Positions 3,417 through 10,444 of a stretch of 64,000 nt of DNA are shown here, piece after piece. A program made the position numbers and the translations under genes. Source of the stretch: Rosettibacter firmus (GTDB lineage Bacteria; Bacteroidota; Ignavibacteria; Ignavibacteriales; Melioribacteraceae). Below the pieces are notes generated by a model. It had not been told where the DNA came from, ran no database searches, and worked only from the letters and a program-made list of their open reading frames with translations. Every line of letters begins with the position of its first letter. Position 1 is the stretch's first letter. Location: the NCBI RefSeq assembly GCF_036860695.1, contig NZ_JAYKGJ010000001.1, positions 186,001-250,000 on the forward strand. The letters run 5' to 3'.

Positions 3417-3516
3417 GTTAAGACTTATCTTAATACTTGTCTTTAGAATTGTCTTGTTAAGACTGGTCTTAATAAAGAATTGACTTGTTAAGACTTGTCT
3501 TGTTAAGACTGGTCTT
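3417..3516 (-). repeat. Tandem array of about seven 15-bp palindromic units between tatA and htpG
   Basis: On the minus strand, units of consensus AAGACMAGTCTTAAC follow one another. Three match the consensus fully and four are degenerate or shortened. Each unit is itself an inverted repeat (AAGAC-2 nt-GTCTT). The first unit encodes the last codons and stop of tatA (Asp-Gln-Ser-stop), and the last lies about 30 bp upstream of the htpG -33 element. Confidence 0.85.
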
Positions 3517-3667
3517 TTTTAGAATTATCATCTTCATTAAGTGCTTTCTTGAAAGACCTGATTCCCTGTCCAAGACCTCTCATCAATTCTGGAATTTTTT
3601 TTGCTCCAAAAAGTAAAACCAGCACTAATAATATTAATATTATTTCTGTAGCCCCTAAGTTACCCAT
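3503..3667 (-). CDS. tatA: Sec-independent translocase subunit TatA/TatE
   Basis: A 54-residue protein starting at ATG 3665-3667. It has a short polar N-terminus (MGNLGATE), one hydrophobic helix (about residues 8-20), the hinge [20 protein letters not shown] (FG and P conserved in TatA), then a short amphipathic helix and a charged tail. TatA oligomerises around TatBC to move folded proteins across the inner membrane. The tail is shorter than in most TatA proteins. No tatC is in the window. The last three codons fall inside the AAGAC palindromic repeat array, so repeat expansion may have set the C-terminus. It lies 57 bp after the four-helix membrane protein on the same strand. Confidence 0.9.
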
Positions 3668-3724: not shown

Positions 3725-4216
3725 TTATTCTTTCTTTAAATCATAGAGCGATATAACAACCATTATATAAAATGATAAATACATTAAAATAGCAGATATA
3801 ACTGTAATATAAACAAAATATTCACTAACAAATCTCATTAGCCATATAGAACCAAAAGAAATTATTAGAGAAATTAATGGTTCTATCATTAAAAATAATT
3901 TCCACTTTAAGTTAACTATAGAATTAAAATAAAAAATTAATCCAATAGAAAAGAAAATAAAAGCCAATCCCAGAATGTGATTATGAGTAGTAATCAACAT
4001 TTCTGAAATTGGCTTTGGATAATTTTCAACCATATCAAAATTGTTATCCGAATTTTCTATATTGCCACGAAATCTTTCAATTGCACCTTTTGGAGTAAAA
4101 GAAGTTGTATGTCTTAAAAATACTAATCCAGTTGAAACACCAATAGTGACAACAGAGATGTAAGTTATTAAAAATAATTTCAATGATTTATCTAATGTTC
4201 TAAGAGAAATATTCAT
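3725..4216 (-). CDS. Four-helix integral membrane protein of unknown function, partner of the FMN-binding protein
   Basis: A 163-residue protein with four predicted transmembrane helices at about 13-33, 80-99, 106-127 and 131-158. A loop of about 45 residues between helices 1 and 2 probably faces the periplasm. Helix 2 begins with TTHNHILGLAF, so H78 and H80 sit at the membrane edge and could bind heme or a metal, and H36 is another candidate ligand. Its ATG overlaps the stop of the FMN-binding gene by 4 bp (ATGA), so the two are probably translationally coupled and work together. I do not recognise a named family. A membrane electron carrier that hands electrons to the flavoprotein is an inference from context and the paired histidines. 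Confidence 0.75.
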   Translation of the reverse strand: MNISLRTLDKSLKLFLITYISVVTIGVSTGLVFLRHTTSFTPKGAIERFRGNIENSDNNFDMVENYPKPISEMLITTHNHILGLAFIFFSIGLIFYFNSIVNLKWKLFLMIEPLISLIISFGSIWLMRFVSEYFVYITVISAILMYLSFYIMVVISLYDLKKE

Positions 4217-4731
4217 ATATTATTTTTAATTATTGAATAAAGTATAGAAAGTTTTTTAATACCTGTTGTCACAGAATTAGCAGAAATTGTCGCTCCACTT
4301 ATTGAACTAACATCTTTTCCAACTTTAAATTGTGAGCTCTCGTCTTTACCTTTAAATTGATTTAACCAGTGTTTTTCCTGAACAGCACCGCCATAAGATT
4401 CTCTGTATTTAATAATTTCTGTATCTAATATTTTCCCATCTAAATCAAAAATAACAATGAATGTAATTGGCAAAGATTTTCCCAGAACATTGTCCATCAT
4501 TGCTGTTGCTATTCTTTTATTATTGTAAAATATCTTCCAGACGTAAATATAGTTTGACAAAAATCTTTGTCTGCATTCTCTTTCTATTCTGGTTTTCAAA
4601 GAATCTGGCAAATCATATTTATAAAATTCCAGTTTAATCTCTTTATTAAAAAAACTACGGATTGAATTTTCTGCATCTTCTTTAATATCGGGATTCAATA
4701 ATAAAATTAATAAAATGAAAATGATTCGCAT
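4213..4731 (-). CDS. FMN-binding domain protein, exported or membrane-anchored
   Basis: A 172-residue protein with a hydrophobic N-terminus (IIFILLILLL) that acts as signal or anchor, and a C-terminal FMN_bind domain of the RnfG/NqrC type. YGGAVQEKHWLNQFKGK is followed by DVSSISGATIS. In this family the Thr of the S/T-G-A-T motif takes FMN covalently through the ApbE flavinyltransferase. I prefer the ATG at 4729-4731; a TTG two codons upstream (4735-4737) is the alternative. It lies 19 bp after the porin gene and overlaps the next gene by 4 bp. It is probably a single-domain extracytoplasmic redox carrier. No apbE is in the window. Confidence 0.85.
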   Translation of the reverse strand: MRIIFILLILLLNPDIKEDAENSIRSFFNKEIKLEFYKYDLPDSLKTRIERECRQRFLSNYIYVWKIFYNNKRIATAMMDNVLGKSLPITFIVIFDLDGKILDTEIIKYRESYGGAVQEKHWLNQFKGKDESSQFKVGKDVSSISGATISANSVTTGIKKLSILYSIIKNNI

Positions 4732-4750
4732 AAACAATAACCTATATTAA

Positions 4751-5818
4751 TTAAAACATATAACCTATACCAAGATTAAATAGTTTAGTTTTTTCATTAC
4801 CCAGTTCTCTTGTACGAATTCCATAATCAATTTTTAAAACAACATTATCAACTGGTTTAACTGATAACCCAATCATCCAGTATTTAAAATGATTTTTCTT
4901 TTCAGAATCTCCACCCGCTAAAGTTTTGGCAGCAGTATTATAATCTGAATATCTAATAAATGGGATTATTTTAGTTTCCCAGTCAAGATCTGCGGAGATA
5001 TTATATCCAAAGTCAAAATAAAAACCTTGTGACTTTTGAAGATTATATTTCTCATAGTCAATTGTGCCATATTCAAATATAGCATCTACTCGATTTGTTT
5101 GATATCTTCCGTGAAATTCATAAATATAGATTTTATTTGATGAAGTATCACCATTTGCTTTGTTATAAGTGAATGAACCACCTATCTTTAAGCTTGATAC
5201 TCCTAAATAATCAATTCGAAAATTATAAAGGAGATTTCTGGCATCAGCTTTAAATCCTTTTCTTCTTGCATCTCTGATTGCATTTGATTCACTGAATTTT
5301 TCGCTATTTAAGCCTTCCATTATAGTTACTTTATAATCAAAAGAATTTATTCTGCCATAAAAAGCTATTCCATTACCAGCCCATGTAGTAGGGATTATTC
5401 TTGTATTATAGTCTGGTCTTTCGACACCAAAGAAAAGTGGTGGTTCGTGGATTTCATTAATTAATCCGACTGAAGGTAACACAACTCCAGCCTGAAATCC
5501 CAACCAATCTTTAAAATGAAAATTTACATAAGCCTGTTCTAATTCCAGTTCCCCCTGACCTTCTTCTACGTAATTATGTTCTAATTCCAGTTCTGAGTGG
5601 AAAGACCATTTATCATTCCAGGTATAACCAATAAATGTTACAAATCGATGGAAATCAAGTAAACTCTTTAATGGTTTATTTCCAACTTTTTCATAATTAT
5701 AATGCAATTCCCCATAACCATGAACATAAGTTTCAAAGTTATAGTTTTCACTCTGAGAAAAAGTTTTAATTTGAATTATAATTATAAAAAGGACAAAATG
5801 TAAAAATAACTTATTCAT
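4751..5818 (-). CDS. Outer-membrane porin-like beta-barrel, first gene of the FMN-binding operon
   Basis: A 355-residue protein with a signal peptide (MNKLFLHFVLFIIIIQ, cleavage near residue 22). The rest alternates polar and hydrophobic residues as in a beta-barrel and ends in aromatic residues (LFNLGIGYMF), as outer-membrane barrels usually do. The segments HSELELEHN, ELELEQAYVNF and AGVVLPSVGLINEIHEPP resemble the phosphate-selective porin O/P superfamily. The ATG has a good ribosome-binding site (AGGAG). Its place ahead of an FMN-binding protein and a four-helix membrane protein suggests that the barrel carries the module's substrate. What it transports is not visible. Confidence 0.75.
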   Translation of the reverse strand: MNKLFLHFVLFIIIIQIKTFSQSENYNFETYVHGYGELHYNYEKVGNKPLKSLLDFHRFVTFIGYTWNDKWSFHSELELEHNYVEEGQGELELEQAYVNFHFKDWLGFQAGVVLPSVGLINEIHEPPLFFGVERPDYNTRIIPTTWAGNGIAFYGRINSFDYKVTIMEGLNSEKFSESNAIRDARRKGFKADARNLLYNFRIDYLGVSSLKIGGSFTYNKANGDTSSNKIYIYEFHGRYQTNRVDAIFEYGTIDYEKYNLQKSQGFYFDFGYNISADLDWETKIIPFIRYSDYNTAAKTLAGGDSEKKNHFKYWMIGLSVKPVDNVVLKIDYGIRTRELGNEKTKLFNLGIGYMF

Positions 5819-5857
5819 AACTGCTCCTATTTTTTTAAAAGAATAATTTATTTAGAC

Positions 5858-5887
5858 TAAATATAAATAATAATTATAAAATAGCAA
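5858..5887 (-). promoter_or_regulatory. Candidate promoter of the porin/FMN-binding operon
   Basis: On the minus strand TTGCTA (5882-5887) and TATATTTA (5858-5865) are 16 bp apart, close to the TTG ... TAnnTTTG pattern and 40-70 bp upstream of the porin ATG. AT-rich context makes chance matches likely. Confidence 0.4.
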
Positions 5888-6159: not shown

Positions 6160-6219
6160 CGAGAAATATGCGATCGGGATCGAGAAATAAACGAGAATGA
6201 GCGAGAAATGAGCGAGAAA
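6160..6219 (+). repeat. Degenerate GAGCGAGAAAT direct repeats
   Basis: About five spaced copies of a CGAGAAAT-like word (CGAGAAATA, CGAGAAATA, CGAGAATGA, CGAGAAATGA, CGAGAAAG) that run straight into the 11-bp repeat array. The copies at the right end are 10-11 bp apart. Confidence 0.6.
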
Positions 6220-6308
6220 GTAACGAATTTGTAGCGAGTTTGTAGCGAATCAGTAACGAATTTGTAACGAATTTGTAACGAGTTTGTAGCGGGTTAGTAA
6301 AGAATTTA
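6220..6308 (+). repeat. 11-bp tandem repeat, about eight copies
   Basis: Consensus GTAACGAATTT, with variants such as GTAGCGAGTTT and GTAGCGAATCA, repeated head to tail without spacers for 89 bp. A unit near one helical turn keeps every copy on the same face of the DNA. It is a simple tandem repeat, not CRISPR. Confidence 0.85.
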
Positions 6309-6611: not shown

Positions 6612-9464
6612 TTATTCACTAATTAAATTATATTTATTGTAAATTTCTTTTAAGAATTCATGACCTTTTTTAGCATATTCATTGCATATTTCATTTGCAT
6701 ACTTTGATTCATTAGAACTATATAAAAATTCAACTATTGAGAGAATATGTTCCTCTTTATACCAAGGAGTAAAGTTTTTAAGCATTTCTAAAAAAATTTC
6801 CCCTATGTATTTAGCTGTTTGTTTATTATCACCTTTGTCCTTTAATTTTTCCAAATACTCGATAAAGAAAGGAGAAACATAACTTTCATTTACATAGCGA
6901 GCTGATAACTTAAGCCATTTGAAAGATTTTTCGTCTATCTGTGGTAAAAATAAAGCTAATTCTGAAATAGCTGATAGTATTTGTTTATCTTCATTTAAAA
7001 GGTTTTCATTTTTGTCTTTGTATTTTTCATAAATCATATTCCAGAACTGCAATATTCTTTCTATAACAATTTTGTCTCCGGCTATTTCTTTTAAGATGTT
7101 GTTTCTCTGCATCCAGAAAAATCTAATAATTTCTTTTATCTGTGCAGGATTCCATAAATCAATCAATTTTTTAAAAAGACTTGATGAATCATCGAGTGTC
7201 TCATTATGATGTAGATATCCTAAACAGATATGTTGTATCAGAAATTCTATATTACGACGCGTTTTAAAATTATAAGAAAGACCGTATTCATAATGTGAAT
7301 TCATAAGATTATAAAGATATCCATAAACCTTTCCGGTAGAAAGATAGCCTTGCATAAAGGCTTCCCAGTATTTGTTACCTTTTTCATTTTCAAGGTTTTT
7401 GATTTTTTCTTTTACCCATTCTCTGTCTAAATAATAAAGTTCAGATAAATAACGACCTAAACAAAAGAAACCCTCTATAATTTTAATGTTTAACAATTCA
7501 TCATATCTTTTCTTAAACTCAGGCTCCCATTTTATGTCTCTCAAAATGCCCTTCTTTTCACTAAAAAGAGCTATACGCAGTGCAAGTAAAATTAGCGCTG
7601 ATATTACTTTCCCAGAAGAAGTATTAATAGTATATGTAACATAGTCAGTTATTTCCTTGTCCTCTTCAACTTTTAAATTATCCAATATCAAGAAAATAAG
7701 TTTTTTCGCTTTCTCAAAAAGTTGTTCAGGGATTGCCCGCTCATCACCTCTTGTACCATACTGTATAAGTTCAGCAACTATTCCAACAATCCAATGATGA
7801 TCAGCACCTCCTAATAAGTTACCCTTTTCTACAATAAATTTATCTTCCCAGAATTCTTTTCTTCCTATATAAAATTCTATAAACTCAAGTACTTTATTCC
7901 ATTCTATTATTTTCTTTTCATTCAATGCATCTTTTACCCCCCTTAAAATCTCATAAACATATATGAAACCAGTATTCTTAAATGAATTAAGGTCATCTAT
8001 GAATTTATCTGGCATTTCCTTAGCAACCTCATATATAACATCAGAAAGTCCATCAATTGATGGTCCTTCCCATTCATCCCTGGTTCTAAATTCCACAAGG
8101 AATTCCGAAAGCTTATCATTAGGGATTTTAATTATTTCTTCTTTTGTTAATGGTGAGGTTTTAATAACCCAACTCGGTTCTTCCATTTTGATAGCAGGTT
8201 GTAGTTCTGCATCCACACCTGATATTTTTTTTATCTCATCATAACGATTTTTAAAGTATGAATCATGAGAAAGAGCTTGATATATTTCTTGTTTATAACG
8301 GGCAATATATTTTTCTCGTTGTTCTTTTATTTGAATTTTTTCTGCTGCTCTTTCAATTTTTAGATTAAGCATTTCTTTCTGTTCATCAGAAAGGTCTCTT
8401 AAATTTTTAAGCAGGTGTTTCAATTCATCTCCAAGATATAAAGTATTTTCCAAAATAAAGTTACCTGCTTCTGTATTCAATACTTCCCAAAAAAGATCTT
8501 CATAAGAATCAACATTTTGCGAGATAATGTAGAGTGCCATTTTAGGAAAATAGAGATATTTATCAATTAGAAATTTATTTAGTAAGTCTTTTACATCATT
8601 GATATTATTTTTAGCCATTGATAGAAGCACTCTTTTTAAGATATAGTTAAGTATACTTTTAGGCTCATCTATACAAAACTCAAGTTCATCAGCTAATTTG
8701 TCAAAGAGAGAGTAATATGCTAAATCTATTTCACTCGTAAGTAGATTTTTTATTTTACTTATTAAATCTTCTACGACACTCTTGGAGCACTTTTGACCGA
8801 TAATTTCAGAATACTTATCAAAAGCTTCCTTCAACCAGTATGAATTAATTACAAGTCGTACATCTTCTTTTTTACCAAGAAATTTTGCTTGTTCTTCAGA
8901 TAAAGGGAAGAATATAATTGCAGTAATACTTTTTATAATACTTTCAGCTTTCTGAATATCCTCAGAATTATCAGTTAAGAATTTTGGTAATAACTTTGTA
9001 GCAATTTCTGCCCCCTGTAGCATATTGTTAAATTTTGAATCAAGCCAGATAGGGATGAGTTTAATAATATCGATAGGTATTTTATTATTTGGAATATTAC
9101 AAAGAATTTTTACAAAATAATACCATATATAATAGTTGTCTATATGTTGATTATTTTCATCTCTATAATTTGACACCTCTTTGATTATAGTTAATAACTC
9201 ATCAATATATTTCTCATTCCCTGGTATATTTATTTGCTGAGATACTTGCTCTAAATAAGGGAGTATATTCCAGAAGGGTACTATAAAATAATCTTCTTTT
9301 TTAGCAGGTTTCAGTCCAGCTAATTTAGATAGAGAAAAGAATCCTTTTTCCTTTAAGGGGTAAAACCATTTTATATCCGTAACTTTTTTAAAAAAATAAT
9401 TTTCATATGTTAAATCTTTTCTTATTAGATCTAAAACCGCTTCTTCTTTTGGAGTTAAACTCAT
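6612..9464 (-). CDS. 950-residue helical protein paired with SIR2, candidate defence partner
   Basis: A large soluble protein with no signal peptide, membrane helix, Walker motif or nuclease motif that I can see. It is almost wholly alpha-helical by composition, with HEAT/TPR-like spacing. The N-terminus contains WFYPLKEKGFFS and FIVPFWNILPYLEQVSQQ, a style of repeat-domain start I associate with large defence or STAND-type sensors. The C-terminal 150 residues resemble DUF4020, which is found fused behind SIR2 domains in other bacteria; both resemblances are from memory. The ATG overlaps the SIR2 stop by 4 bp (ATGA), so the pair is translationally coupled. The likely role is to recognise a phage signal and control the SIR2 NADase. 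It could equally be a scaffold. Confidence 0.7.
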   Translation of the reverse strand: MSLTPKEEAVLDLIRKDLTYENYFFKKVTDIKWFYPLKEKGFFSLSKLAGLKPAKKEDYFIVPFWNILPYLEQVSQQINIPGNEKYIDELLTIIKEVSNYRDENNQHIDNYYIWYYFVKILCNIPNNKIPIDIIKLIPIWLDSKFNNMLQGAEIATKLLPKFLTDNSEDIQKAESIIKSITAIIFFPLSEEQAKFLGKKEDVRLVINSYWLKEAFDKYSEIIGQKCSKSVVEDLISKIKNLLTSEIDLAYYSLFDKLADELEFCIDEPKSILNYILKRVLLSMAKNNINDVKDLLNKFLIDKYLYFPKMALYIISQNVDSYEDLFWEVLNTEAGNFILENTLYLGDELKHLLKNLRDLSDEQKEMLNLKIERAAEKIQIKEQREKYIARYKQEIYQALSHDSYFKNRYDEIKKISGVDAELQPAIKMEEPSWVIKTSPLTKEEIIKIPNDKLSEFLVEFRTRDEWEGPSIDGLSDVIYEVAKEMPDKFIDDLNSFKNTGFIYVYEILRGVKDALNEKKIIEWNKVLEFIEFYIGRKEFWEDKFIVEKGNLLGGADHHWIVGIVAELIQYGTRGDERAIPEQLFEKAKKLIFLILDNLKVEEDKEITDYVTYTINTSSGKVISALILLALRIALFSEKKGILRDIKWEPEFKKRYDELLNIKIIEGFFCLGRYLSELYYLDREWVKEKIKNLENEKGNKYWEAFMQGYLSTGKVYGYLYNLMNSHYEYGLSYNFKTRRNIEFLIQHICLGYLHHNETLDDSSSLFKKLIDLWNPAQIKEIIRFFWMQRNNILKEIAGDKIVIERILQFWNMIYEKYKDKNENLLNEDKQILSAISELALFLPQIDEKSFKWLKLSARYVNESYVSPFFIEYLEKLKDKGDNKQTAKYIGEIFLEMLKNFTPWYKEEHILSIVEFLYSSNESKYANEICNEYAKKGHEFLKEIYNKYNLISE

Positions 9465-10444
9465 TTCAATACCTCATCAATTAATTTAATCTTCTCAAGA
9501 AAATCTTGTGGTCGAGATTGAGGACCAATTATTTTTGCCCATGTACTAATTACTTCAGCAAGATGTTCGTATCCATTTTCATCAATCGGATAAGGGACTA
9601 ATTGAATTCCTAATTCTTTATAGTACTCTTCATAAAATTTTAACAAATTAATTTCATTTTTAAAAATAGGATAAAGCATAAAATGCTTCACTTCTTGTTT
9701 TGATGGATTAGATTTACTAACAAGTAATTCTAATATCTCAAATTCTTCTAATCCATAACCAACAAAAAGAACGGTGTAATTTTTAAAAATTTCCTCAAGT
9801 AAAATTACAGATTTTGAATCAGGTTTATAGTGTTTTATATAATCAGTAACTGTTAAGATTAGATTACTTTCATCCAAAATAGATCCGTGAAGATGAATAA
9901 CATATCCATTAATTAAATTTGAAATTAAAAGTTCTTCTTTTTTATAAATAATATTATTTTTTGAACTATCTTTTTCAATAGGATTTTCAATTGAATTTGA
10001 TGAATTAATATATGTTGTATTTTTTATTGATCTTTGAGCGACCTTGTCTAAATAATCATCATAGTTTGTAGTCACATAAATAGCATTAAAAGAATATAAA
10101 TTGTCATATATATTAAATTTTTCATTTAAATCATCTTTGGCAGTTAAAAAAGATTTAATAAAATCTAAAGATTTTTTTCCTAACTTTTTCTCATATAATT
10201 TTCTACAAATCGATAGTAATTTTCTTGCATCTAAATGTTGCAATTTTTCATATTCATGATAATTGATTATTTTTTTCTCATATAAAACCTTTAAAAATAA
10301 GCAAGCAAATTCATCCCAAGAAGGACATCCAATAATACGAGAAAGCCCGGCTCCAATAAATAAAACTAATCTACCATGTTGTGCAGCAGATATTATTTCA
10401 TCAGGTACATCTGGAATATCTTGAATTTCATTTTTTTCTTTCAC
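9461..10444 (-). CDS. SIR2-domain protein, probable NAD-depleting defence effector
   Basis: A 327-residue SIR2-like protein with the NAD-binding motif FIGAGLS (GAGLS 31-35), VTTNYDD (124-130) carrying the conserved N and D, and HLHG (184-187) with the candidate catalytic His186. SIR2 domains in anti-phage systems usually hydrolyse NAD+ and stop cell growth on infection. The start is the GTG at 10442-10444: an in-frame TGA lies two codons upstream and no ATG is available. AAGGAG lies 11 bp ahead of it. The gene overlaps a broken upstream reading frame and is coupled to the 950-residue partner. No SLOG, TIR, HerA or Argonaute partner is adjacent, so this is not a standard Thoeris, SIR2-HerA or SIR2-Ago layout. 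Confidence 0.85.
   Translation of the reverse strand: MKEKNEIQDIPDVPDEIISAAQHGRLVLFIGAGLSRIIGCPSWDEFACLFLKVLYEKKIINYHEYEKLQHLDARKLLSICRKLYEKKLGKKSLDFIKSFLTAKDDLNEKFNIYDNLYSFNAIYVTTNYDDYLDKVAQRSIKNTTYINSSNSIENPIEKDSSKNNIIYKKEELLISNLINGYVIHLHGSILDESNLILTVTDYIKHYKPDSKSVILLEEIFKNYTVLFVGYGLEEFEILELLVSKSNPSKQEVKHFMLYPIFKNEINLLKFYEEYYKELGIQLVPYPIDENGYEHLAEVISTWAKIIGPQSRPQDFLEKIKLIDEVLK

Follow-up and report, generated by a model that had tools for sequence, protein, structure and literature searches.

A conserved gene trio for a porin, an FMN-binding protein and a four-helix membrane protein in Rosettibacter firmus, probably a Fur-repressed module for reductive iron acquisition

Gene content of the locus

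Three tightly packed genes were identified on the minus strand of the window, i.e. the whole stretch of 64,000 nucleotides analysed from the 3.24 Mb genome of Rosettibacter firmus. They encode a porin, an FMN-binding protein and a membrane protein with four helices, and a palindrome resembling a Fur box lies in front of them. The features of the locus are as follows.

5818-4751, minus strand: porin ORF, 355 aa, with 16 strands in the model
4731-4213, minus strand: ORF of the FMN-binding protein (PF04205), 172 aa counted from the ATG
4216-3725, minus strand: ORF of the four-helix protein, predicted to sit in the inner membrane, 163 aa, no match in Pfam or NCBIfam
4299-4288, minus strand: flavinylation motif SGAT, residues 145-148 of the FMN-binding protein
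3985-3977, minus strand: H78-x-H80, second membrane helix of the four-helix protein, predicted in its periplasmic half
5848-5870, no strand assigned: Fur-box-like palindrome, 29 nt upstream of the start codon of the porin gene

The ORF of the FMN-binding protein was listed from a TTG at 4737; the ATG at 4731 was preferred because it gives a 19-bp gap to the porin gene and fits the starts of the homologues. This gap, followed by a 4-bp overlap between the second and third genes, confirms the tight packing noticed in the initial annotation. The tatA gene (3503-3667, minus strand) follows the four-helix gene at a distance of 57 bp, and TatA was dropped as a member of the module since it adjoins the trio in only 3 of the 29 loci of relatives.

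Imperfect short tandem repeats were present between tatA and htpG (3430-3516, TTAAGACTTGTCTTG) and upstream of the trio (6181-6307, CGAGAAATGAG and GTAACGAATTT types). Further upstream, at 6612-10444 on the minus strand, two ORFs overlapping by 4 bp encode a protein of 327 aa (SIR2-like by eye) and then one of 950 aa, which match successive parts of a single Dsr1 anti-phage model (E 3e-84 and 3e-146). Judged by these matches, the region is a Dsr1 split into two genes.

Distribution and conservation of the trio

A match to the four-helix protein was found in 49 of 146 genomes, with the genome of the window counted and one match being a fragment of 29 residues at the end of a contig. Its profile matched 41 of the 395 genomes sampled from the phylum. 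The closest relative (70% identity) belongs to Melioribacter sp., and no relative was found in plasmid records at the limits used. Scanning contigs with the four-helix protein gave 46 nearer loci, including one from Calditrichaeota and eight from Neomarinimicrobiota or Marinimicrobia. Another 20 distant loci represent 20 of the 22 profile matches outside the order in the search of 395 genomes. These 46 and 20 make up the 66 triplet loci, 986 kb in all; the nearer loci overlap in part with the relatives from the 146 genomes, and the two sets were not summed.

The FMN gene adjoins the four-helix gene in 62 of the 66 triplet loci, and in 62 of 62 where the contig leaves room, as the four loci without it (L051, L078, L087, L091) have contigs that start 0-183 nt ahead of the four-helix gene. 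At L094 and L095 the order is reversed, the four-helix gene coming first and the FMN gene second. A porin of the same family was present in 58 of the 61 loci where the contig reaches its place; L102 was one of the misses, and the other two were again L094 and L095, in which a barrel-like protein (by eye) without a match to the porin profile occupies that place. The same arrangement was seen in 28 of the 29 loci of the first set of relatives (L006-L034), the exception being cut at a contig end. The initial annotation had made its proposal depend on the three genes occurring together elsewhere, and this is what these counts give. By sequence comparison, the arrangement is not due to chance and the trio is one conserved unit, and its conservation can be called well supported.

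Proteins encoded by the trio

The porin was modelled by AlphaFold2 with good confidence (pLDDT 87.2, pTM 0.81) as a barrel of 16 strands, in keeping with the outer-membrane barrel first read from the letters. Foldseek matched the model with OmpC, OmpT, OmpF and OprP. Pfam gave three weak barrel matches, all under cut-off, and membership in Porin_O_P (PF07396) was rejected as a near miss (20.7 against a cut-off of 20.9). A long conserved loop follows the fifth strand of the model and is perhaps the constriction loop. Among 37 porin sequences, the positions kept in at least 97% include 10 acidic, 6 basic and 4 His residues, and the mean net charge is -10, which would suit cations over phosphate, though this is only suggestive.

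For the FMN-binding protein, the FMN_bind domain (PF04205) was recognized with E 2.5e-10 and 41.3 bits against a cut-off of 22, and a periplasmic location is predicted from the hydrophobic N-terminus. The flavinylation motif SGAT, already pointed out in the initial annotation, was seen in the window protein; GAT was found in all 62 FMN proteins of the triplet loci and SGAT in 56, with the Thr kept in 62 of 62. The best match in the PDB was RnfG (9eri_G, E 0.04). An identity as RnfG/NqrC was rejected, for the nearest NCBIfam model, rnfG, gave 38.7 bits against a cut-off of 102, and the Rnf operon is on another contig. Two other FMN_bind genes existed in the genome, one in the Rnf operon and one alone.

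Flavinylation needs to be considered together with ApbE, whose only gene in this genome lies inside rnfCDGEA-apbE-rnfB (Rnf names by eye), away from the trio. Among the relatives, apbE was located at most 6 kb from the four-helix gene in 5 of the 46 nearer and 14 of the 20 distant loci, and was confirmed by Pfam at L054, L060, L093, L094, L096, L098-L101, L108 and L111. The apbE neighbourhood suggested at the outset is thus found in part of the relatives, but it is absent from the cluster of the window itself. Counted by genome, ApbE was detected in 45 of 49 with the four-helix gene versus 43 of 97 without (n=146; Fisher p 1e-8, with kinship ignored), and the four lacking a detected ApbE were all drafts of 390-630 contigs. 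The genome holds both an FMN_bind protein with the motif Thr and an ApbE, the marks of a flavinylated system, and a bound flavin is predicted.

The four-helix protein was modelled with high confidence as a helical bundle (pLDDT 90.8, pTM 0.83), with helices at residues 10-38, 70-96, 103-129 and 134-161. H78 and H80, the pair singled out by the initial annotation, are the only residues of the window protein found in all of the 67 sequences aligned (66 loci and the window), and no homologue had lost them. Nearly invariant among the 67 are G51 (65), P113 (64), E112 (61) and R128 (59). By the positive-inside count, the two termini are predicted to be cytoplasmic and residues 37-72 to form a long acidic loop on the outer side, with a mean of 7.4 D/E versus 3.4 K/R in this loop. 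Since the charges place the loop outside, the HxH would be in the periplasmic half of helix 2, near the periplasmic face.

Neither Pfam nor NCBIfam gave a match for the window protein at E up to 1, which agrees with the first remark that no name was known for this set, and of the relatives tried (five, then six) against the profile libraries none came near a cut-off. Its sequence had only a chance match in the PDB. Foldseek returned 112 matches for the model, none at E of 0.001 or less, and such a lack of a fold match is proof of nothing. In a VIA comparison with 237 of the Foldseek chains, a vinculin head was the best with Z 8.6, and was rejected as a fold relative because this is chance level for helical bundles. 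Looked at as a membrane b-type cytochrome, the protein offers two invariant His and no close fold match. Proteobacteria may have a cytochrome-bearing relative, often mislabelled as elongation factor-1 alpha, an idea that plays no part in the argument.

In L094 and L095 the four-helix protein carries GHFHLFG. A NusG_II protein with a Tat-like start was observed between the four-helix gene and apbE in L060 (2310-3035; Pfam E 5e-12 for the domain), and also in L064, L065 and L087.

A Fur-type box upstream of the porin gene

Palindromes were searched for blindly in 56 porin upstream regions, and up to 16 of these had arms in common, versus at most 5 in 30 shuffles. The 15-bp core taken from these palindromes, with at least 12 of 14 matches, occurred in 28 of the 56 regions; 100 shuffles gave 0.5 on average and never more than 3. 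The full form of the box is TTATTTAGA-N5-TCTAAATAA. From the 46 nearer loci (L047-L092), 32 of the 38 porin upstream regions went into a matrix, with the window left out. Applied to the 64-kb window, it found one site of at least 9, that at 5848-5870, with a score of 28.6.

Within the genome of the window, the box with up to 2 mismatches was counted 4 times versus 4 in the reversed control, and with up to 3 mismatches 27 times versus 69; the core alone, in this AT-rich genome, gave 48 sites versus 138 at up to 2 mismatches. The count is no better than chance, and it is position and conservation across genomes that carry the case. A site at C4:223585 (2 mismatches) scored 10.5 and was taken as chance. 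Two box sites were found in a locus for a TonB receptor and a HmuY lipoprotein of the same genome (G000 C3:337610-341860, L145), one of them 9 nt before the TonB receptor gene and the other before the next gene upstream.

The matrix found a site in 21 of 21 feoB regions. These sites scored 18.4-27.4, and no score in 420 shuffled regions exceeded 15.5. Twenty of these regions came from 19 genomes and the last was fur-feoA-feoB of the window's genome; all were chosen as FeoB copies of about 680 residues, so they are not independent, the genomes being related and one FeoB type having been chosen. In 18 of the 21 a following gene was called by script, starting 0-30 nt from the site and resembling fur or feoA by eye; in the window's genome that gene is FUR by Pfam. 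With a second type of FeoB as contrast, a site (20.0-24.1) was found in only 5 of 24 loci, and the other 19 had nothing above 6.1 within about 1.5 kb on each side.

In the 66 triplet loci there were 54 sites of at least 15, and 44 of them were within 300 nt upstream of the porin, 31 of these 44 having trained the matrix. Of the 20 such sites in the distant loci, which took no part in the training, 12 were at most 300 nt upstream of the porin and 2 before fur. The ten sites away from the porin upstream were located as follows.

L093, L098: before fur
L099, L108: before the gene of an SBP-type binding protein and a divergent gene
L111: before the apbE at the head of the operon
L106: before the FMN gene
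L070, L093, L102: at the place of the porin or at its mis-called start
L069: 384 nt before the porin

No site of at least 15 was present in 20 of the 66 loci. Eight of these start in, after or less than 100 nt from the porin (L051, L065, L077-L079, L087, L089, L091), and the remaining 12 were negative at the threshold of 15 (L072, L080, L084, L092, L094-L097, L100, L101, L104, L112).

The arms and the spacing of this box equal those of the Fur box of Riemerella. For R. anatipestifer (Flavobacteriales, likewise Bacteroidota) the box was predicted as ATTTAGAATTATTCTAAAT, and a gel shift with purified Fur on four chosen promoters is reported to show binding of the box-holding fragments (PMC5609570); the box ATTTAGAATTATCCTAAAT is also given together with a gel shift (PMC10986502). 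Both sources have the ATTTAGA form, at odds with PMC7976709, which quotes an E. coli-type box for Riemerella. A porin is among the genes reported to be raised by iron limitation in Riemerella (PMC5429918). Since the box is common to the feoB regions and equal to the box tested by gel shift, the trio very probably belongs to the Fur regulon, and its regulation can be regarded as well supported. The earlier interpretation of an envelope flavin electron-transfer module keeps the conserved unit, the HxH, the flavinylation Thr and the link to apbE, but it had missed the control by Fur.

Neighbouring genes and proposed function

Iron genes were found in the cluster at several loci. At L098 one strand carries, in this order, fur, a gene resembling feoA (by eye), feoB, the genes of the porin, the FMN-binding protein and the four-helix protein, and apbE. 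The box stands in front of fur, and about 560 nt separate feoB from the porin. FeoB is encoded upstream of the porin at L096, L097 and L098 (by Pfam at L096, by a profile made in this work at the other two), and FUR near the porin at L093 and L098 (by Pfam). The binding proteins at L099 and L108 belong to the SBP family (Pfam) and, on a reading of their sequences, may be iron-binding. Some distant loci have neighbours resembling phosphate transport or housekeeping genes (by eye).

The genes, their co-conservation, the invariance of HxH and GAT, the association with ApbE and the shared Fur-type box were all obtained by computation. The trio is probably a Fur-repressed module of the cell envelope for iron acquisition, in which a flavin would serve to reduce Fe(III) for FeoB. 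Iron is taken as the thing brought in because the control by Fur points to iron. A different role under the same control would be an electron outlet at low iron or a repair path, e.g. for oxidised periplasmic proteins, with the porin serving another solute. It is generally known that iron-sparing genes share Fur control and that flavins can replace iron cofactors, and MsrQ is described as part of a methionine sulfoxide reductase (eLife 2021). Such a role appears rather unlikely, as the porin is a constant partner and the first gene in nearly all loci, and FeoB or Fur is in the cluster at L096-L098 and L093.

For the iron-acquisition module, the proposed course of events is as follows. Shortage of iron would lift Fur, and the three genes would be turned on along with fur-feoAB and haem uptake. 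The porin would admit iron ions or small iron complexes across the outer membrane, and ApbE would link FMN to the periplasmic protein at the Thr of SGAT. The four-helix protein would take electrons from the membrane via H78/H80, most likely from quinol and perhaps via heme, and would pass them on to the flavoprotein. The flavoprotein would then reduce Fe(III) to Fe(II), which FeoB could import.

The HxH and the acidic periplasmic loop could also form a metal site, in which case the four-helix protein would be a carrier or chaperone of Fe2+ and the flavoprotein would receive its electrons from Rnf, which is present with its own ApbE in the window's genome, or from elsewhere. This was considered improbable: a dedicated importer, FeoB, is already in the cluster at three loci, and the trio minus the four-helix protein would have no membrane electron donor. 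As it overlaps with the iron-acquisition reading, the chances given to the several readings do not sum to one.

Mono-heme cytochrome c genes were found beside the distant relatives of the trio in L094 (7139-11046) and L095 (6854-10842), both without the box. They would fit a respiratory module whose electrons leave through the porin for an acceptor outside the cell, as would a protein with eight CxxCH motifs encoded on the opposite strand in L094. The Fur box of the trio fits assimilation, the 16-strand barrel is the fold of a diffusion porin, and CxxCH, looked for as the sign of a porin-cytochrome conduit, was found in none of the three window proteins, so that a respiratory module seems very unlikely. 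A protein resembling the heme domain of ethylbenzene dehydrogenase type (by eye) was observed in L095.

Within the iron-acquisition reading, a further proposal is put forward more tentatively and with the chances somewhat against it. The HxH protein might be a new class of membrane electron donor, from quinol to flavoprotein and perhaps with hemes on both faces of the helix, which together with an iron porin and a flavinylated reductase would constitute an undescribed reductive iron route in Bacteroidota, Calditrichota and Neomarinimicrobiota. To our knowledge, the source of Fe(II) for FeoB in Gram-negative bacteria is often unclear. If true, the route would give a concrete answer on the supply of Fe(II) for FeoB in a large group of environmental bacteria, and flavinylation-based electron transfer would gain a new membrane partner.

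Comparison with known systems

The HxH has a counterpart in the heme-copper oxidases, where the HxH of helix X binds two hemes on one membrane helix; the motif is alike, but no link in sequence or fold to the four-helix protein was found. The porin shares the 16-strand barrel with OprP/OprO and OmpC/OmpF, while its conserved residues are more acidic than basic, in contrast to the arginine ladder of OprP. RnfG/NqrC have the FMN_bind domain and SGAT in common with the FMN-binding protein of the trio, but this protein stays under the rnfG cut-off, and the Rnf operon of the genome has its own FMN_bind gene elsewhere.

The membrane partners described for flavinylation are NapH, MsrQ, PepSY, DsbD and NQR/RNF-like proteins, and later DUF4405 (PMC8238504, PMC11334425); by Pfam and NCBIfam the four-helix protein falls in none of these classes. 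DUF4405 and FezC cytochromes are likewise membrane proteins whose most conserved residues are His, and DUF4405 often adjoins apbE (PMC11334425). DUF4405 is described there with six helices and four central His, whereas the protein of the trio has four helices and one HxH, predicted near the periplasmic side.

Links between flavinylation and iron have been described for VIT1, TonB receptors and P19/FTR1 (PMC8238504, PMC11334425). The P19/FTR1 clusters resemble the trio in that an FMN-binding gene is tied to iron uptake, but, compared by description only, they are mostly Gram-positive and are presented in PMC8238504 without a porin. The word "porin" is absent from the main texts of PMC8238504 and PMC11334425, and no description of the trio appeared among the titles and abstract beginnings of the matches listed, a search with preprints and most subscription papers outside its scope. 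Nearest in the proposed role are the PepSY-like and MsrQ-like systems of iron assimilation, which are described with an extracytosolic FMN-binding protein flavinylated by ApbE, a proposed reduction of iron and links to iron transporters or TonB receptors (PMC8238504). The trio differs from them in its membrane partner, a four-helix HxH protein without a Pfam match, and in its outer-membrane partner, a porin. Since the described partners include neither, the trio would represent a form of flavin-based iron assimilation in which the membrane family is new and a porin takes part.
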